Below are positions 13,727-64,000 of a stretch of DNA of 64,000 bases, piece by piece (positions within the stretch are counted from its first letter, which is position 1; the number at the start of each line of letters is the position of its first letter). The stretch spans positions 496,001 through 560,000 of the forward strand of contig JAHBXS010000004.1 in assembly GCA_019636375.1 (NCBI GenBank), given 5' to 3'. Source of the DNA: Pirellulaceae bacterium. GTDB lineage: Bacteria; Planctomycetota; Planctomycetia; Pirellulales; Pirellulaceae. The translations under genes were made by a program, and so were the position numbers. A model generated the notes under the pieces. That model was given only the letters and a program-made list of their open reading frames with translations, was not told where the DNA came from and ran no database searches.

Positions 13727-13841
13727 GCATGCTCCTTCAGTGCGTCCGAATTTTTCACAGTGTGAAAACCCACGTGGCCGTTCACTCCAGGAACCGCAAC
13801 TCCAATTCGCAACCCCTCCCAAACCCATCCAACCAATTTCG

Positions 13842-13972
13842 CGCACCATCTTTTACCCAACATCTTTTACCAAAAAAACAATCGCACCATCATCTCAAGC
13901 GAAAGCCCCATGTCCTCCCATAGTCAGCGTGACGATTTGGTACAAGATGTTGGGTAAAAGGTGACCATGCTC
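13842..13972. repeat. Palindromic repeat unit, copy 1
   Basis: A 131-bp unit whose ends form a 21-base inverted repeat (ttttacccaacatctttt... at 13851-13871 against ...agatgttgggtaaaa at 13939-13959, one mismatch). The same unit recurs 225 bp downstream. It encodes nothing. The structure resembles a small non-autonomous element or a structured repeat. Confidence 0.75.
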
Positions 13973-14065
13973 AAGGGAGTGGAATAAGGGCCAGCGAAAT
14001 TGGTGCCAAGCAAATTTTCAAAGTGCATCAATGGCACCAATTCTCCATTTTTCAAAACCTCCACG

Positions 14066-14197
14066 CGCAACATCTTTTACCCTTCATCTTTTACCATCAA
14101 AAACAATCGCTCCATCATCTCAAGCAAGAATCCAACGCCCTCCCATAGTCAACGTGACGATTTGGTAAAAGATGTTGGGTAAAAGATGACCATGCTC
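14066..14197. repeat. Palindromic repeat unit, copy 2
   Basis: Second copy of the unit at 13842-13972, about 85% identical by eye, with inner core identity in acaatcgc, ccatcatctcaagc and ctcccatagtca/aacgtgacga. The right arm here reads ggtaaaagatgttgggtaaa. Similarity continues weakly past the unit (aaattggtgccaag against aaattgtgccaag), so the tandem period is about 225 bp. Confidence 0.75.
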
Positions 14198-14526
14198 TAG
14201 CACCCGCCAAATTGTGCCAAGTTGCCTATGTAATGCATCGCGCATTTGCCTGAAAGGCTATCTCTCTCCCAGTCCAGGGAAGAGCGAGGGTTAGATGCCC
14301 ATCGAACCCTCGCGCCGCCCTGGGTACACGCCCCACACGTTCCCTTTCCGGCCCAATGGGCCAACCGATCTACATTCCGATCAAAAATGTATAGCCACCC
14401 CAAAAGCCATGCTACCAATTCAGAAACGCCAAGCACGTTACGTCCGTCAAAATATTTGCCGGAAAAAAAGCAAAGCAGATTCAAAATCCACGTGGGTAAT
14501 ATCGAGCCACGGATGGTACACCGATT

Positions 14527-14612: not shown

Positions 14613-15068
14613 ATTGAATTGGTGCTACCCGACCCCCATTCAACCCCTCAGATAGGCCGCAACCGTCTACACGATCACTAAAAAGAATCGCCTTGTTCCC
14701 CCAACCAATCATACGATGAACCAATCCGGAATCAGAATCGATCATTCCTGTAGGCAAACGCAACTTCTGTCATCACTATCTCGTCATCGGCAACTTTAAT
14801 TCCCACATCCGTCTATTGATCACTGAAATCTATCCATCGAAAATCGCGGCCAACCAGCCACCGAACCAATTTTCAAACCTCCCCGCAAATCAAGCCCGCT
14901 AGCGCGTCAATACGGGATTATCCGCGCTAGCCGAGCTTTTCCCGAAACCAACTTGTTGACTGAGTTTTAAAATTTATCTACACTGTAACCGAGGTTTTAG
15001 CCGTTTTTTATCCACTTATCACGCGCTAGCCGATGATAATTACAAGTTCGTCGCTACTTGAGGGCTGA

Positions 15069-15473
15069 CCAATCCACCAATACAAACGCCGTACCTTTGA
15101 CGAATGCTTGAAGATTGCCCTCGATGCGTTCTCGGTGAGCGCGAAGCAGCACTTGACTCCCGCTCAATTCGAATACTGTGTAAAAGAGGCGTGTCTTGGC
15201 GGCGGTTCCGTCTTGCCGGGATGGGCTGAAATAATCGGAAATGAACCTGATGATCGTCATCATTACGAGATACGTGTGACTGATTGGATGGACAAATCGC
15301 GGCCGCAGGATAAACGAACTTGGGTTAGAATCCTTGTGTCCCGTGACCGCGCCAGCGACTTGTGCGAAATTCAATGGCTAGCAGATCGGGATTGGTTGCC
15401 ATCTTCCCTGCCATCGACAGAATCCGCGACGAACAAACCGATGAACCCAAGCGGCGGATCGGGCGTTTCCTGA
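15069..15473 (+). CDS. Small cassette-type hypothetical protein, 5' end uncertain
   Basis: The open frame runs from a stop at 15066 to 15473. The only usual start codon is TTG at 15108 (121 residues), but the residues upstream (YKRRTFDECLKIALDAF) read like genuine protein, so the true start may have been lost. I recognise no family; the protein is hydrophilic with a Trp-rich middle (VTDWMDKSRPQDKRTWVRI). Its last residues (NKPMNPSGGSGVS) are encoded by the left half of an attC site at 15432-15517, which is common for integron cassette genes. It is the first gene of the cassette cluster. Confidence 0.6.
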   Translation, partial: PIHQYKRRTFDECLKIALDAFSVSAKQHLTPAQFEYCVKEACLGGGSVLPGWAEIIGNEPDDRHHYEIRVTDWMDKSRPQDKRTWVRILVSRDRASDLCEIQWLADRDWLPSSLPSTESATNKPMNPSGGSGVS

Positions 15474-15517
15474 AATCAACATTTATTGGCCGCCGCTGGG
15501 TTATCGGTAGCGTTATG
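15432..15517 (+). other. attC recombination site 1
   Basis: Left arm 15437-15457 (accgatgaacccaagcggcgg) pairs with right arm 15490-15508 (ccgccgctgggttatcggt) perfectly except for two unpaired bases in the left arm (G and A), the extrahelical-base pattern by which integrases choose the attC strand. Outer boxes are aacaaacc on the left and agcgttatg on the right. The loop carries cgggcgtttcctgaaatcaa, shared with sites 2 and 4. Seen directly; assignment to attC follows from known attC architecture. Confidence 0.82.
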
Positions 15518-15985
15518 TCACAAACAATGAATCCGTTCGATTTGCTACGCCCCGATGCCGTTCAAGAGCAATGCGAATGCGACTCGTTAGAACAAGTCGT
15601 GATGGTCAACCTGCTGACAGACAACCCGCTCCATTGCATCAAGTGCCGGAAGGAAATAACACCGGAACGATTACCGCTGACATCGGATGATGTGCGTGAG
15701 ATCTCTGGATGGAACTCGATTGCCAACGCCCTTTACAAACTTTGGCTTGATTCAACCGAATACGAGATATATGCGAAAGAGAAATTACTTGATCCAAACG
15801 GTCACGTGAATCAGCGTGGTTTGGAGGCTGCACGTCACCTGTCATCGAAGATCCCAACATGGTTTTGGTTTTTCCGTGACGCAGATGACGAGATACCAGA
15901 CAACTGCCCAGTCTGTTGTCAACCGCTTGATTCGGATGTGAAGTGGGCGGAACGACGATGCATGAACTGCAGGCTTTACATGTGA
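15515..15985 (+). CDS. Cassette-encoded zinc-ribbon-like protein
   Basis: 156 residues from the ATG at 15515, inside the right box of attC 1 (ATG at 15527 also possible); a longer frame from 15362 runs through the attC and is rejected. Two Cys pairs are visible: CIKCRK near residue 43 and CPVCC with CMNC at the C-terminus, consistent with zinc ribbons. The middle part (ALYKLWLDSTEYEIYAKEKL, VNQRGLEAARHLS) resembles the DUF2310 family of small zinc-ribbon proteins, a guess from memory. It lies between attC 1 and attC 2 in cassette orientation. Confidence 0.75.
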   Translation: MSQTMNPFDLLRPDAVQEQCECDSLEQVVMVNLLTDNPLHCIKCRKEITPERLPLTSDDVREISGWNSIANALYKLWLDSTEYEIYAKEKLLDPNGHVNQRGLEAARHLSSKIPTWFWFFRDADDEIPDNCPVCCQPLDSDVKWAERRCMNCRLYM

Positions 15986-16015: not shown

Positions 16016-16107
16016 GTAACAGAACAAAAAAATGCACCCGAGTTGCCGATCGGGCGTTTCCGGAAGTCAAAGTCACTTGGCGGCAACCGGGTGATTTTAG
16101 CCGTACT
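16016..16107 (+). other. attC recombination site 2
   Basis: Left arm 16029-16048 (aaaatgcacccgagttgccg) pairs with right arm 16081-16098 (cggcaaccgggtgatttt), again with unpaired G and A only in the left arm. The loop repeats atcgggcgtttccggaagtcaa from site 1 with two changes. Left box gtaacagaacaa; right box is degenerate (agccgtactg). Confidence 0.78.
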
Positions 16108-16115
16108 GCGACTGA

Positions 16116-17137: not shown

Positions 17138-17244
17138 CGGTCTCTTTCGGTTTGAGTGACTTGAGCCAAATACGTTTGAGTCCCGAGCTCGTTAAAGGTT
17201 AATCCATTGTGGACAATTACCAATGTTATGGGGCCATAATGAGT

Positions 17245-17340
17245 ATTTACGCGATGCAACGGAGCGAAAATGGCGTTCCGTTTTTTTCCTGAAATCAAGA
17301 TAACTCGCGCCATTTTCGCCCGTTTATCGCCAGCGTTCGG
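17245..17340 (+). other. attC recombination site 4
   Basis: Left arm 17251-17275 (gcgatgcaacgg then agcgaaaatggcg) pairs with right arm 17308-17330 (cgccattttcgcccg then tttatcgc), with unpaired G and A in the left arm at the same places as in sites 1 and 2. The loop contains tttcctgaaatcaa, identical to site 1. The right box is cagcgttcggcc; the left box is weak. Confidence 0.75.
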
Positions 17341-17356
17341 CCAATACAAATTCGCA

Positions 17357-55381: not shown

Positions 55382-56194
55382 CTACAAGTTTCTTAATGTC
55401 TCGTGTGCGATCTCACTGTTAGTCGGCCAATGTCGGCTAATCATAATTATGAGTCTATTTCGGTCCTGTTTGCTTCCCATTGAAAGAGATATTTGTTCAA
55501 TTGCTTGTTCCATGGTTAGTCCATTGAACGCATGTGACCTTATCATGTTACGAATTTCGTCGCTGTCAAGTTTCAGACGTGACGGATCTGCGCAGTTTGT
55601 ACTCTGTTTTTCCTCAAGAATCCTGATTCGACTGGTTAAATGTCGAGTATTGTCCAGGATTTCTGCCAAAATGTCGTCGGGTTGCCTAGGAGCAACATCG
55701 ACCGGCCTGTCTGTCTGATTTAGGATATCAGAAAACTTACTCTCAAATTGATCCCAATAAGTATCAAAAACATTGAGGAGACTTTTTTGCTCCAAAGAAG
55801 CTGTACCGAGTTGGTTGTTAATCGTCTCAATCATCCCCAAGACGCTGTCGCGATCCGGCAATGTGTGGTTGAATTGGGCTAACGGGTCTTTAATATCAAT
55901 AGGTCTTAAATCAATGAGAAATGTGCATATTCGATTTGAGGTAAGTCCCTTCGTGAGCGCACCCGCCTCAAAAAGAATCCATGGTCGGTCCTTGTTTTCG
56001 TGAGTCAAGCACACGATACCAACGGCGGTATCTTTTAATCGCTCATTAATTTCGCTGAACCACACGGAACCTCGATCCAAATCGCGAGTTGACACCCATG
56101 GCCTGGTTGCTTGAAGAACACAACGAATCCAATCTCGAAGAAACTCTGCAACGGCCTTACTTCGGCCCCCAGACCAACTGATAAAAATGTTCAT
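55382..56194 (-). CDS. TIR-domain protein, probable defence effector
   Basis: 270 residues. The first 135 form a TIR fold: MNIFISWSGGRSKAVAEFLR, WVSTRDLDRGSVWFSEINE, VGIVCLTHENKDRPWILFEA, with the catalytic-type Glu at about 76 in WILFEAGAL. Bacterial TIR domains cleave NAD+ or make cyclic ADP-ribose signals in anti-phage systems. The C-terminal half is helical and unknown; a segment with NGLTMEQAIEQISLSMGSK could be a small regulatory module. It lies 97 bases downstream of the Mrr-like gene on the same strand. Confidence 0.85.
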   Translation of the reverse strand: MNIFISWSGGRSKAVAEFLRDWIRCVLQATRPWVSTRDLDRGSVWFSEINERLKDTAVGIVCLTHENKDRPWILFEAGALTKGLTSNRICTFLIDLRPIDIKDPLAQFNHTLPDRDSVLGMIETINNQLGTASLEQKSLLNVFDTYWDQFESKFSDILNQTDRPVDVAPRQPDDILAEILDNTRHLTSRIRILEEKQSTNCADPSRLKLDSDEIRNMIRSHAFNGLTMEQAIEQISLSMGSKQDRNRLIIMISRHWPTNSEIAHETLRNL

Positions 56195-56291: not shown

Positions 56292-57113
56292 TCATTCAGA
56301 AACCCGCCGACCATCATGCAAGTCGAGGCGAAAATCCTCTAGCTCAGCGCGGGCTTCAAACACATTTGACGTGAACTCACTGGTTGTAACGAGCATGGCG
56401 TATGACGTCTTTGCTCGAAAACTGGCACCAACAACTGAATTTAAAATATCAATGCCAACCTTGTTCGATTCGCAATAGCGTTTGCATTCGACCAGATACT
56501 TAATTTCTTCGCCGTTCTCATTCTTTTGAATGGCCATAAGGTCTGCGCTTCGATTCTTAATACGCCCCGTAAATTCTATATCGAATCCATGGCTGGTAAG
56601 GATTTCGCCAGTCAATTGCTCAAAAGCATCGGCGTGAATCTGTTTTGAACTATTCAGATGTGTTTTGAGCCAAATAATAAACTCTTCGTTGATCAATTTT
56701 ACAGCAGAGATCAAATCTTCAGACAGATTAGCAATTCGCAATGTGAATAAATCGTACTGTTCCGCAATCAATGAATTGAATTGGGATTCGTTTCTTAACG
56801 TAGTGATTCGCTTTATCAAAGCCGGATAAGTTTCATCCCAAAATTCAGGAATCTTTGAAACAAAATCACCCATCCTAGATTCCAAAAATGTTCGAAATAC
56901 AGGTCGGACCAAAGGAAAAACATCGGCCGGAAGCTTTGTGCCTGAATGTTCCTCAAAAGAATGCATGATCGCGACAGTGAGAACACTAAAAAAATCCTCT
57001 GCGAAGTCGTCACGCTTTTTGGGATCGAGAGAATTCCACCATGCAAGTCTAAACAACATCGGACCAACATGATCTGAAAGCATTTCCGCCAATAGTTCGT
57101 TTGATGGTCTCAT
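56292..57113 (-). CDS. Mrr-like restriction endonuclease domain protein
   Basis: 273 residues. The last 120 have a PD-(D/E)xK nuclease of the Mrr_cat type: AFEQLTGEILTSHGFDIEFT, then ADLMAIQ with Asp about 191 and YLVECKRY with Glu 209 and Lys 211, and KTSYAMLVTTSEFTSNVFE. The first 150 residues are helical and not recognised (WWNSLDPKKRDDFAEDF, LRIANLSEDLISAVKLINEE). Such proteins cut modified or foreign DNA. Upstream of the TIR gene in an apparent two-gene unit; the next element upstream is a transposase. Confidence 0.85.
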   Translation of the reverse strand: MRPSNELLAEMLSDHVGPMLFRLAWWNSLDPKKRDDFAEDFFSVLTVAIMHSFEEHSGTKLPADVFPLVRPVFRTFLESRMGDFVSKIPEFWDETYPALIKRITTLRNESQFNSLIAEQYDLFTLRIANLSEDLISAVKLINEEFIIWLKTHLNSSKQIHADAFEQLTGEILTSHGFDIEFTGRIKNRSADLMAIQKNENGEEIKYLVECKRYCESNKVGIDILNSVVGASFRAKTSYAMLVTTSEFTSNVFEARAELEDFRLDLHDGRRVSE

Positions 57114-59120: not shown

Positions 59121-59997
59121 TTTCTTCCTCCAAAAACCGTTTTTGATACTATTCTGCGATTTCATTCTCATTTTGCCAGCAATCGACAACTGTCCCATTT
59201 GCAAGCAACTATGGCCACCTAGATCAAAAACACCGCAACACTTGCGATCGGGGATCTAGCTTCGTCAAAGATCCGCAAGGCCGTTACCACGCGCGGTGTA
59301 ATCGAGGGCCTCAAGTTGAATGGCACGATTTCCAAGAATGGTCGGGCCATTCCGTCAAAGGTGACATACAAATCGGTCCAATTGTACGAAGGGGTGACGG
59401 TCAGCGTCGATCACCCATAGACCGGACGAATCAAAGACTGTCATGGTCGGATTTGCTAAACGGTAACGGCGCGCGGATTGAGCGCGACTACCAGATGGTA
59501 GTTTTTTTGAGTTTGGATGTCCAGTGACTTGTGGTGTTGTTTTGGCACTTTGCCGTCAGCATGCATTGAACACCAGAGCCATGCCTAAAAAAATCCAACA
59601 TCCCTGAACAAACCTGAAAGGAGTTTCAAAATGTTTTGAAACACCGTATTGACCAAATTTAAGACCGTCGCTGACCCCTTTGATTTCCCTTGATTTCCCC
59701 AAACAAATTCAAAAAAATCCGTACACCCTATTGACGCCTTGACTCAGATGTCTCCGGTTCAGCGGTGGACCGTCCGCTGCAACCGGTTGTTCTGCGGGGA
59801 TCCGGAGTAATTAGGCCAGTCGGAGACGTGGACACTTTGGGCGCCGGAAACAGGCAACCCGGACTTCGTTGCGGCGTCGACCCGCGTAGCGATCGTATCG
59901 CCGCATCTCAAGCGGACTGCATCGGGAGGGGCACCGTGGGCCGAGAATCCGGGTAGTCCCGCAAACTCGGCAGTGATGACGGCGCACAGTGTGCGAA
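59121..59997. other. Decayed region with phage-like and repeat remnants
   Basis: About 880 bases without an intact gene. It includes the prohead-protease-like fragment (59223-59420). A frame at 59759-60016 on the minus strand ends NNRLQRTVHR, a tail type seen where frames run into attC-like palindromes; at 59766-59800 the stem ccggttgcagcgg / ccgctgaaccgg (one extra G) is present on the minus strand but the outer boxes are poor. The rest shows nothing I can name. Confidence 0.45.
59223..59420 (+). pseudogene. Fragment resembling a phage prohead protease or scaffold N-terminus
   Basis: 66 codons reading IKNTATLAIGDLASSKIRKA, TTRGVIEGLKLNGTISKNGR, then YKSVQLYEGVTVSVDHP and a stop. The pattern G-V-I-G...SKNGR-P...LYEGV-V-VDHP is that of capsid maturation protease or scaffold proteins of tailed phages. 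A stop at 59220 right after an ATG (59211) and one at 59418 bracket it. Only the first domain survives. Similarity is from memory of the family pattern. Confidence 0.5.
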
Positions 59998-60543
59998 CTA
60001 AGTACCGTTTGCGCATTCAGTAGTGCCGCGCTGAAGGTAGTCTCTTATGCAAAAGACGCAACCAATGTGAGGAACTTCCTTGGTGAAGAGTCCAGCGATA
60101 GCGCCGAGGACTGTTGGTCTTGAAAGGTCACGGTAACGTCCGAGTTTTTCTAGCGATCGCGCTTCTTCGAACAGCACTCGATCATTCTTGATTAGCCTCT
60201 CCAAGCACACATTTCTTGGTGTCAAATCGTCGAGTGCATGGTGGGCGCAGGCCATGAGGGCGTGTACGTAGTTCTTCTTGCTCAGTGCATTGAAGTGTCG
60301 CTTTCGGTTCAGGATATGACGCAAAGGCATGCTTTCGACTTGCGATCGAAGGGCGTGTTCGGCGGTTTCGAGATGATTGATGCCGGAGTCCACCCGGGCC
60401 TTCCAATCAGTTGATAGGGTGGCCTTCCAGAAGGCATCTTTGGCTGCCTCTAACTCAATCGATGACAGCAAGTCTGCGACGGTGTCCGAGAACAGGAAGT
60501 CACGGACGCTGACAGCGGCCCTCAGGGTTGTCATGTAGTTCAT
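59998..60543 (-). CDS. Hypothetical protein, possibly shortened by the IS110 insertion
   Basis: 181 residues from the ATG at 60543; starts at 60612 or further upstream to 60873 are possible, but the latter overlaps the IS110 gene. The protein is mostly helical with YMTTLRAAVSVRDFLFSDTV, then GINHLETAEHALRSQ, YVHALMACAHHALDDL and GCVFCIRDYL near the end. No family recognised. The upstream neighbour is the left end of an IS110 element, so the native 5' end may have been replaced. Confidence 0.5.
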   Translation of the reverse strand: MNYMTTLRAAVSVRDFLFSDTVADLLSSIELEAAKDAFWKATLSTDWKARVDSGINHLETAEHALRSQVESMPLRHILNRKRHFNALSKKNYVHALMACAHHALDDLTPRNVCLERLIKNDRVLFEEARSLEKLGRYRDLSRPTVLGAIAGLFTKEVPHIGCVFCIRDYLQRGTTECANGT

Positions 60544-60629
60544 ATCGTTGACCAAGAAGTTGTGTTGCTTATCCGTCGGAACAGGCTGGCGGATCGCGAG
60601 ACCCCTTAACATTGCACGGTGTGGGCGCT

Positions 60630-60778
60630 TCCACCGCAGAAAGAATCCATGTAAGTCCTGGGTTTGGGGCGGGAGCCTTTGAATTAAAATCTGGCGACTC
60701 AGACCCGTGATCTCGGGTCGGCTGTTGACGACCACTGTCACAATTTTTTCCAACCCCAAACCCAAGGAAATACTAACC
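60630..60778 (+). ncRNA. Candidate structured leader of the IS110 element (possible bridge RNA)
   Basis: Between the hypothetical gene and the transposase ATG, tgggtttgggg (60659-60669) pairs with ccccaaaccca (60754-60764), enclosing a gaccc/gggtc hairpin near 60704-60720. IS110 elements are known to encode a bridge RNA in a non-coding end that selects target and donor sites. The position and structure fit, but loop sequences that match the flanks were not worked out. Confidence 0.35.
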
Positions 60779-62162
60779 ATGAAAATTCTCGCACTCGATA
60801 TCGGGAAATTCAAGTCTGTTTGCTGTCTTTTCGACACGAAAACCAGAAAATTCGAGTTTTTCACCGTAGGCACAGACAGAAATTATCTGACCTCGGTCTT
60901 CAAACAACACCCCGTCGACCTCGTCGTGATGGAAGCCTGTGGTCCATCGGGTTGGATCAACGACTTGGCCGTCAGCCTCCGACATAAGACCCTCGTCTGC
61001 TCCACCAATGAAGAAGCCTGGAAGTGGGTGAACGTCAAACGCAAGACGGACAAAGACGACGCTCTCAAACAGGCCCGTATGGCAGCCATGAACGAACTCA
61101 AAGCGGTGCATGTGCCTTCGGAAGAACACCGGGAATTCCGTTCGTTGGTCAAGTATCGCAAGACCCTCGACTACCGCATCAACAAAATCAAATGCACCAT
61201 CCGAGCTTGGTTCGTCAACCACGGGATCAAGATCGATAGCGGAGAGAAGGCGTGGCATTCAGGTCGAACGCTGATCGATTCGTACCGCAAGCCCCTGGAG
61301 CAGTGCAGCGACAAGGAACTGTGGCAGGGAGAACTCGATCTGGAACTCACGCGGGCTGGACGCCCTGGTAGCCCAGGAAGAACAAGTCATCAAGCGTCTG
61401 GAGGCCATCAGCAAGAACGACTCACGCATCCATCGCATCCGCTCGGTGCCTGGTGTCGGTCCACGCACCGCCGAGATTCTGGTGGCCTGTATCGACGATC
61501 CCCATCGTTTTGACAACGGTCGCCAAGTCTCTCAGTACTTTGGCCTAGTCCCGCGTCAGTACCAATCGGGCGAAACCGACCGCAACGGGCGGATCAACAA
61601 ACGCGGCAATCCATTGGCTCGCACGATCCTGGTCGAGTGTGCTTGGGCATCGTTGCGTTACAACCCGTGGGCCAAGGCGGTGTACGAGCGAATCAGCGGC
61701 AAACAAAAGACACGGCGGAAAAAAGCCGCCGTGGCCCTGGCCCGGAAGATTGCCGTGATCGCATGGGCCTTGCTCCGCGACGACAAAGATTGGGAACCCA
61801 AGCGGATGATCGAAGTCACCGAATCGTTTGGAAAGATGTCAGCGTCATTGAAGCAAACCCTGGAAGGGATGAAGCCTAAGGAGAATAGTGACCAGCGCAA
61901 AGCCCGCCTTCGCCGCGAAGCCCGCTCGGCCAAAGCAGGCGTTACCCAAGCAAGCATCACCCAGGCAACCCTGACTGATCCCATCGGATCACGCGCGGGT
62001 AAGGCATCGAAGAAGAAAGCTGCCCCCGTGATGGGATTTTCTGAGGAATCGCAGGGCACAAAAATAATCAAGAAGCCCGCAGAGCCTCACTCCGTTTCAC
62101 CAGCCAAATCACAGTGTAGTCGATCAACACGAACCGATCAATTCAAGGAGAAGAGACCTTGA
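60779..62162 (+). pseudogene. IS110-family transposase, frameshifted
   Basis: The first frame from the ATG at 60779 has MKILALDIGKFKSVCCLFDT (first Asp of the DEDD site), VVMEACGPSGW (Glu) and KRKTDKDDALKQARM (Asp pair). After ELDLELTR the frame is lost; the second frame picks up LDALVAQEEQVIKRLEAISK, then SVPGVGPRTAEILVACIDDP, YFGLVPRQYQSGE and NKRGNPLARTILVECAWASL, the C-terminal Transposase_20 domain with its Ser region. One extra G in the run at 61353-61355 explains the break. It could be a real mutation, an assembly error or recoding. The C-terminal tail after residue about 400 is Ala/Lys-rich. Confidence 0.85.
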
Positions 62163-62210
62163 AACCACGGCGAGCAAGACAGCCCGTATCGCCGCCGGGT
62201 AAGTGTGGTT

Positions 62211-62884
62211 AGCCCATGCACATACCGACGAACGAATTGGCCTTGCTCGCCTTTTTTGAACCAAGCTCAAGGGGACAACCAGTATCGCTGTCTGATCAAC
62301 GAGTTCGGCGAACGAATCGGACCTTTTGAGCGTTTTTCGACTGACTCTTTACGAACATAACCAACGATTTCGAAACCCCAAACGACCATTGATTCTGAAG
62401 GAGAGCCACCGGCCGAACACACTGACGAACGTCCAGGACGAAGACCAACCCATTGGACACCAGCACGACCAACAAATGACCCTGCAGCTTCCCACTTTAG
62501 GACTCGAACGCGAGCATGCAACTTGTTCGACGAAGCCGCAGACAGGTCGCCCTAAAGAAGGTGCAGTCCACGGGAGAGAAGCTTGCTGCTCACTAGAAGC
62601 CTCCAGGCAAGCTTTGGCCAAAGAACGGAACAAACACTCGAACCAGAATGATTTGAACCGTGCATGGATAACTGAGGGAACGCAGCCCGCACAAGCAGGC
62701 GTACCAGAACGAAATGCGTTCACACCTCGAATAGTCGTTTAATCAAACATCCTGAACTGAGTCATTGTGAATAAAGCCGCCGAGCACTTCCTCAGCAATC
62801 CCAAACAAGGAACTCAATCATGTAATCCAAAAACACTTCTCAAAAAAAGGGGCCCAACCCACTTGCCAAACCCAGGACTTCATA
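62211..62884. other. Region without a convincing gene between IS110 and the AbiTii cassette
   Basis: About 670 bases. Frames of 84-138 codons occur on both strands at 62267-62742 but have skewed composition and no family features. No repeat or hairpin stands out. It may belong to an older insertion. Confidence 0.45.
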
Positions 62885-62971
62885 GTCGTCAACGATCACC
62901 GGGCCGCCGGTGTGATCGTTCCATTCAAAACACGCGTTGTCGGCGGCTCCGCGTGCATCGTGTTGTTATGC
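62885..62971 (-). other. attC recombination site 6 (minus orientation)
   Basis: On the minus strand the left box gcataacaacacg is followed by acgatgcacgcggagccgcc (ending g), which pairs with cggcggcccggtgatcgt on the far side except for extra G, G and A in the left arm. Right box gatcgttgacg. The arm motif gatg-ac-cgga-g is the same as in sites 1-4 at 15-17 kb. The TAA stop of the AbiTii gene is the first part of the left box, the usual cassette arrangement. Confidence 0.82.
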
Positions 62972-63967
62972 ACCGAACGTTAAGGATATTGCTGCAGCGG
63001 CAACCCCTACACCAATGTCTCGTGCAACATTCAAGGTCCATTTCCCTGCGGCTTTGAGATACTCCAATGCTTTGGCCCCGTCGCCGTTCTCCGCGCACTG
63101 GCGAGCTGCTTCGACATTTCCGATTGCGATTTGATGTTCCGGTTCAGACGCGCGTTCTTTCATTGCCCCGACAAGTGATTCAAGGTCTGCTGCAAGTTTA
63201 TGGAGGTCGATATCGCCAGCATTCTGAATCCAGAGCTGATTGAACGTGTTGCCATGTGCGATTGCGTGTGGTCCAACCGCCCCAGCCTGTCCGGTTTCGT
63301 ATTTGTCACCCATATGAAGATCTCCGGATTGTTTCTCGAATATTGTGCAGTTGCTGTAGATGACGCGATCAACAAGGCGTGAAACCTCGGATACGGAGAC
63401 ATTGTTGATTGCATCGGGATCATTTTCTAATTCAGGGTATGTTTCGCGAAGCTCAATCAAGAAGTCCAACAAGCGCGTGCGGATTGCGTGTAGGACTCCG
63501 CGAACCGATGATTTTGTGAAGATCGCTTGAATTGACTGCATCTCCTGACCGGATACGCGAACACATGGTCCGGAACGAATCAATTGGACGATTTCAATGC
63601 CAAAATGGCGATGGAACGTTTGAGAATCGGTGTCAAGCATTGCCTCGATTTCGCCAATGTTTTCCAGAAAGCAATGTCGCTCAACGAAGTCTTTGACGTT
63701 CTGTGGGAAATCGGTAAGCGAGAGCGGAACATTTTTCGTCCGCGCACCAAATCGTCCCCAAAAGTCGGCCAAGAGCCTTGGATAGATTATGCGATACTCA
63801 GGCAGAGAATCGACGTCTGGGTATCGATTAAGCTCGGCGTCAACCCAGTTGCGGAATTTCCGGCTACGCATTCTTGCCGCCAACAGCTTTGATTTGAGCA
63901 AGACGGCGGAAAGCGTGTGATTGCTTTCGTCGGCGACTTCTTCGATCAACGTTGAAAACTTGGTCAT
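62966..63967 (-). CDS. AbiTii-domain protein in an integron cassette
   Basis: 333 residues. The N-terminal 95 match the AbiTii domain: FSTLIEEVADESNHTLSAVL, LLAARMRSRKFRNWVDAELN, LPEYRIIYPRL. A middle region of unknown fold (100-215) leads to DLHMGDKYETGQAGAVGPHA, then QNAGDIDLHKLAADLESLVG and IAIGNVEAARQCAENGDGAK with ALEYLKAAGKW, a C-terminal module found in many proteins of conflict systems. AbiTii proteins are linked to abortive phage defence. The gene ends inside attC 6; just upstream, at 63973-63990, gttatgcacc could be the right box of the preceding attC, cut by the window end. Confidence 0.85.
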   Translation of the reverse strand: MTKFSTLIEEVADESNHTLSAVLLKSKLLAARMRSRKFRNWVDAELNRYPDVDSLPEYRIIYPRLLADFWGRFGARTKNVPLSLTDFPQNVKDFVERHCFLENIGEIEAMLDTDSQTFHRHFGIEIVQLIRSGPCVRVSGQEMQSIQAIFTKSSVRGVLHAIRTRLLDFLIELRETYPELENDPDAINNVSVSEVSRLVDRVIYSNCTIFEKQSGDLHMGDKYETGQAGAVGPHAIAHGNTFNQLWIQNAGDIDLHKLAADLESLVGAMKERASEPEHQIAIGNVEAARQCAENGDGAKALEYLKAAGKWTLNVARDIGVGVAAAAISLTFGA

Positions 63968-64000
63968 GTTAATAGGTGCATAACTATTAATGGACAGAGT

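Follow-up and report, generated by a model that had tools for sequence, protein, structure and literature searches.

The AbiTii-type gene near the right end of the window (the whole 64,000-nt stretch of DNA that was analyzed; Table 1) very probably occupies the first cassette position of a chromosomal integron that has decayed, its product being most likely an effector of the abortive-infection type. That the gene is carried as an integron cassette had been proposed in the preliminary description, and the proposal is upheld by a covariance-model match to its attC, by complementary R boxes at the two cassette ends, by the canonical fold of those ends when joined, and by an attI site and an integrase gene (intI) relic beside it. 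Integrons carrying anti-phage genes were reported in 2025 (Darracq et al.; Kieffer et al.; Getz et al., as cited in PMC12444791 and PMC13064858), and IS1111 elements that seek attC sites have been known since 2008–2009. In common with the sedentary and mobile integrons of those studies, the AbiTii locus has a gene of anti-phage type as a cassette at attI/attC, but here the platform is planctomycete, the integrase is dead, and the gene belongs to the AbiTii family. A literature search, which mostly missed subscription journals, found no paper linking AbiTii to integron cassettes. The locus adds this family to integron-borne defence genes, in Planctomycetota and in several proteobacterial lineages, and presents a natural end state in which the platform integrase is dead, the cassette is probably locked by an attC-seeking insertion sequence (IS), and the defence gene stays intact behind the platform promoter. 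It also supplies concrete cassettes for asking whether defence cargo persists as an integron decays.

Table 1. Features of the window, with positions counted from its first nucleotide.
Feature	Positions	Strand	Remarks
attI module of class A, without intI	14898–15048	plus	Ends at crossover ...ATAATTACAAG|TTCG; platform of the window's other array
attC of the other array	15428–15518	plus	96.7 bits; used to build model R1
attC of the other array	16019–16109	plus	90.6 bits; used to build model R1
Third, degenerate attC of the other array	17241–17341	plus	35.7 bits, E 3.6e-7; not in R1
TIR-TM gene	55382–56194		PADLOC E 1.2e-57; beside the Mrr-type gene
Mrr-type nuclease gene	56292–57113		Beside the TIR-TM gene
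IS of IS1111/IS110 type at the attC crossover	60639–62886	plus	PF01548, PF02371; left end approximate
AbiTii attC	62887–62974	minus	R'' box GGTGCATAAC at 62974–62965; paired L boxes; ends at crossover G 62887
AbiTii ORF, 333 aa	62966–63967	minus	PF18864 and PADLOC AbiTii matches
Whole AbiTii cassette, 1,097 bp	62887–63983	minus	Starts one base past the attI crossover (G|TTATGCACC) and ends with the crossover G of its own attC
R' box GTTATGCACC at the attI/cassette junction	63975–63984	minus	Exact complement of R''; attI runs on past 64000

Cassette Boundaries and the attC of AbiTii

The covariance model (R1) rests on eight further attCs of this genome, the AbiTii attC being left out: two at 15.4 and 16.0 kb of the window, two from an intact integron at C1:7 kb, and four from C1:131–135 kb. 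The alignment was checked for a common fold, in which 12 of the 18 pairs show two-sided change in some sequence. R1 matches the AbiTii attC at 62880–62971 on the minus strand with 45 bits, at an E of 7.4e-10 in 206 kb, 3.6e-11 in the last 10 kb (filters off), and 1.9e-8 genome-wide. The gene is followed, as cassette genes are, by R'', L'', L', and R' boxes with extrahelical bases on one arm, and its stop codon (TAA, 62968–62966) falls inside the R'' box, in agreement with the earlier claim that it forms part of the left box of an attC.

On the chromosome, the remainder of the R' box of this attC is replaced by the IS, and because the site is incomplete there, its R' was taken from the other end of the cassette. 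At that 5' boundary, G|TT completes the R' of AbiTii's own cassette. The GTTATGCACC 10-mer is present once per strand in the 64 kb (chance expectation, about 0.1), and AbiTii lies between its two copies. When R''...L' is joined to GTTATGCACC, as in a circular cassette, the sequence adopts a canonical attC fold (z −4.07; none of 200 shuffles reached its stability), in which the R stem has 10 bp and the L stem bears three extrahelical bases (G, G, A); the linear chromosomal site without the upstream box folds poorly (z −0.84). The extra-base pattern had been described as the same as that of the attCs 46 kb away; it is nearly so, these having two extrahelical bases (at 15.4 and 16.0 kb) rather than three. 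Likewise, the possible right box seen before the start codon is an exact complement of R'', but it marks the junction of attI and cassette, not the end of a preceding attC.

The attI Site, Promoter, and intI Relic

In the sequence past position 64000, where a preceding attC had been expected, there is none; what lies there instead is an attI, together with a promoter and an intI that is dead. The intI relic (C4:560108–560410; TIGR02249 match) is divergent from AbiTii and truncated, is 59% identical to residues 5–122 of an intact 400-aa IntI from another genus of the family, and has two in-frame stops; no intact intI adjoins the attI at this locus. AbiTii directly adjoins the attI and points away from intI, which is the canonical orientation of a cassette. 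Because attI, promoter, and intI relic all lie upstream of it, AbiTii is read as a dead integron's first cassette.

The attI and intI relic recur, 79–81% identical, at C1:1074.7–1075.2 kb. These two platforms (class B) are alike from the intI relic to TAATAG|TTATGC (GCATAAC), after which they carry different first cassettes, and because they diverge there, the attI crossover was placed at that point; the other end of the cassette was set where the inserted IS stops. A promoter directed at AbiTii (TTGACA-18-TAGAAT, 11 of 12 matches) lies in the interval from intI to this crossover, and in the C1 copy TTGACA-18-TAAAAT, read from the sequence, occupies the equivalent position. A single type of repeat (GGGGAAACGGGGACAGG...; L010:3420–3510 and L012:10150–10236) truncates both class-B intI relics at an identical point, so the two relics may be copies of one platform that was already broken, rather than two independent losses.

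The history that best explains this arrangement would begin with a circular AbiTii cassette inserted by IntI at attI (G|TTATGCACC), an event that would have put AbiTii ~80 bp downstream of the Pc-like promoter in the gap between attI and intI, diverging from intI. The intI gene would later have been cut to its N-terminal part and have gained stop codons, and an attC-seeking IS1111-like element would have jumped into the crossover point of the AbiTii attC. We infer the order of these decay steps, as well as the expression of AbiTii from Pc.

Alternatively, AbiTii could be an ordinary gene of a chromosomal defence island that has no integron history and is followed by a chance attC-like palindrome, a reading to which the TIR-TM and Mrr-type genes 6–8 kb away, with no attC between them, lend some color. 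We regard it as scarcely credible: the genome-wide E of the attC and the complementary R boxes bracketing the gene are at odds with chance, the gene is absent from 198 relatives (see below), and the adjoining attI and intI relic in canonical orientation refute it.

An IS1111-Like Element in the attC

A 2.25-kb IS with DEDD and Transposase_20 domains breaks up the far end of the AbiTii attC, directly at the crossover G. It has subterminal inverted repeats (AAGTCCTGGGTTTGG) at both ends, as do members of the IS1111-attC group, and its transposase is interrupted by a frameshift in the window (60707–61513 and 61446–62162). A second copy (C1:131.8–134.1 kb), 99% identical, adjoins another attC in the corresponding place, and the five partial copies (C2:602 kb; C4:160, 163, 252, and 692 kb) all lie within attC clusters; thus, all seven copies in the genome are in attC clusters, and both near-full ones abut an attC crossover, as is characteristic of the group. 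IS1111-attC elements target one end of attC sites (PMC11187229 and its references 2 and 23). The IS1111-attC elements ISKpn4 and ISPst6 (PMC11187229, citing Post and Hall, 2009; Tetu and Holmes, 2008) resemble the window element in their DEDD transposase, subterminal inverted repeats, long downstream non-coding region, and insertion at one attC end; the window element differs from them in residing in a planctomycete and in having partial copies that are also scattered over other attC arrays.

Because the IS splits the attC at the crossover, so that R' is gone, and there is no cognate IntI, the AbiTii cassette is probably now locked and not excisable in the normal way. The opposite possibility, that it is still mobile through the IntI at C1:7198 acting in trans, with precise loss of the IS restoring the attC, draws on the presence of a full-length intI in the genome (457 aa, 423.6 bits) and on the placement of the IS exactly between the crossover G and the remaining R' box. 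We consider this distinctly unlikely, since the intI at C1:7198 is of another class with a different attI, R' is not contiguous while the IS is in place, and the IS transposase is frameshifted here, though the second copy could act. An ORF at 59998–60873 begins just beyond the IS and is followed by an attC-like palindrome at 59743–59796 (R1 12.3 bits, E 0.11 in 10 kb); the two are possibly the next cassette of the dead array.

The AbiTii Protein

The lactococcal AbiT system consists of two genes, AbiTi and AbiTii. In the AbiTii cassette of the window, a single ORF fills the 1,097 bp, with no AbiTi. The encoded protein shares with lactococcal AbiT and PF18864 the N-terminal AbiTii domain, but differs from the lactococcal system in being encoded by a single gene and in having a long disordered linker and its own C-terminal module. 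Membership in the family is clear from the match to PF18864 (95.2 bits against the Pfam curated cut-off of 27.6; E 7.5e-27) and from the PADLOC AbiTii model (E 3.5e-28). The AbiTii domain spans residues 6–181 of the 333, retains the conserved W, E, P, and YR residues, and is followed by a low-confidence linker and a helical C-terminus; in the AlphaFold2 model (mean pLDDT 70.5), the disordered linker is at residues 207–250.

In a survey of HEPN proteins, the AbiTii domain is described as alpha+beta, as carrying a conserved glutamate, as not known to have enzymatic activity, and as itself lacking the HEPN domain, some of its homologues being fused to HEPN nucleases (PMC3710099). Foldseek comparison of the predicted structure with the PDB and with viral models returned no match at E ≤ 0.001, and a sequence search of solved structures with the protein gave no conclusive relative; therefore, no catalytic mechanism is claimed. 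A tblastn search of PLSDB with the AbiTii protein returned partial matches only. Residues 217–333 (62966–63316) alone have counterparts at 40% identity on plasmids of Hymenobacter and Azospirillum, and because only this part matches there, the C-terminal part may be a module common to different effectors.

Our best guess is that the protein is most likely a stand-alone phage-response effector of the abortive-infection type, the pointer to anti-phage activity being the family name only. A genuine cassette gene with another function, such as a dormancy or stress toxin or some other role in conflict, is a weaker though serious candidate: function is read from the name of the family, the predicted structure and the search of solved structures give the protein no informative match, and AbiTii itself is without the HEPN domain that is fused to some homologues (PMC3710099). 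An anti-phage role is favored over it by the naming of the AbiTii domain after a phage-resistance locus and by the other defence-like cargo in the cassettes of this genome.

AbiTii Cassettes in Other Bacteria

None of 198 other genomes of the family, including four from the same genus, has an AbiTii homologue (E 1e-10), and an AbiTii domain protein is encoded in 8 of 391 other Planctomycetota genomes. A scan of contigs with the window protein alone gave no relatives, and a seven-member alignment had no stretch conserved enough for searching; a three-member alignment (A3) served as the working query, and with it, nine AbiTii loci were found in a scan of ~85,000 genomes.

Cassette-type ends accompany AbiTii at most of these loci. 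In Planctomycetes bacterium RIFCSPLOWO2_12_FULL_40_19 (G553, locus L059), one of the eight Planctomycetota genomes, a 60-bp attC lies at the AbiTii stop and the matching box GTTATGCG before the start. In Marinobacter alexandrii (L055), attCs are present on both sides of the gene, the adjacent ones recognized by eye and one further upstream by the model, and in Methylomicrobium sp. wino1 (L057), attCs likewise flank it on both sides, with an intI remnant (1316–1474) ~1 kb upstream. Three further MAGs probably also carry AbiTii as a cassette: in L056 (a MAG labeled Actinomycetota), the gene is preceded by an attC and followed by an R'' box; in L060, inspection by eye shows an attC-like end upstream; and in L058, GTTATGC precedes the gene and GCATAA follows it. 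Cassette-type ends were not seen around AbiTii in L054, L061 (Rouxiella), or L062 (Kribbella). A search of five other cassette genomes found an IntI above the TIGR02249 cut-off in four; Rouxiella, where AbiTii is not in a cassette, has none at that level.

The window protein is only 22–26% identical to the AbiTii proteins found elsewhere, and for this reason, the cassettes in other bacteria are separate captures of family members, rather than one cassette. The proposed look for the same gene in other cassette arrays has a positive outcome for the family, with diverged AbiTii genes in Marinobacter, Methylomicrobium, and another planctomycete, but at this level of identity not for the cassette itself. 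Because such relatives occupy cassettes in several unrelated bacteria, the AbiTii family seems to travel repeatedly by integron. A planctomycete pool of anti-phage cassettes, as suggested in the preliminary description, agrees with the defence-like genes among the cassette cargo of this genome, but the pool is wider than the phylum: it also includes Gammaproteobacteria, and probably Syntrophobacterales and Deltaproteobacteria.

Other Integron Platforms and Defence-Like Cargo of the Genome

The R1 search of the genome found at least 50 attCs in ~16 clusters. Sharing of a cassette pool by two separate loci had been envisaged; more than one locus does have attCs of the same type, the number being ~16 clusters rather than two. 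A single full-length intI is present in the genome, that at C1:7198, and the attI of the window's other array shares 94% identity with the corresponding region of the intact integron (C1:7 kb).

When 42 cassette ORFs were searched with PADLOC, nine matched at E ≤ 1e-4, and for four of these the E was ≤ 1e-20; 36 non-cassette ORFs gave a few weak matches, the best at 5e-10. An enrichment of defence genes among the cassettes is suggestive only, given small samples and mechanically picked ORFs. Besides AbiTii itself, the matching cassette ORFs include a ThsB gene (Thoeris; PADLOC E 1.4e-115) located 16 kb past the window (L037:3137–3943, minus strand; C4:576137–576943), where it occupies the first cassette position in a further integron relic, one that has a truncated class-A intI and an attI minus its promoter part, and a PDC-M34A/B pair (E ~1e-75) carried in the intact integron. 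Further cassette matches are to Mrr- and type II-like nucleases, PDC-M40A, a TIR, and a nucleotidyltransferase. The TIR-TM and Mrr-type genes at 55–57 kb of the window were also considered as cassettes and rejected, as R1 detects no attC for them in the last 10 kb.

A more far-reaching reading, which we offer tentatively and hold to be somewhat less probable than its contrary, is that of a dispersed integron system in which many integrase-less attI platforms might be served by possibly one intact IntI in trans, and in which defence genes (AbiTii, ThsB, PDC-M34, Mrr) would be among the cassettes that are kept as platforms decay and as the attC-seeking IS locks them, the AbiTii family being a recurrent cross-phylum defence cargo.

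The class-A attI module, ~150 bp long, recurs without intI at about ten places (window 14898–15048; C1:370161, 438018, and 1194747; C4:156308, 321484, and 688408; C2:605021; C8:62598; and, weakly, C1:100718), and these modules look like a dispersed family of integrase-less integron platforms. Most of the copies without intI have a further upstream unit of 0.3–1 kb (72–90% identical), which is missing from the two class-A attI copies that bear intI. The module also occurs four times in G029, a genome from a different genus within the family. Arrays of CATCTTTTACCC-type repeats adjoin class-A attI modules, both in the window (13826–14200) and at L049.
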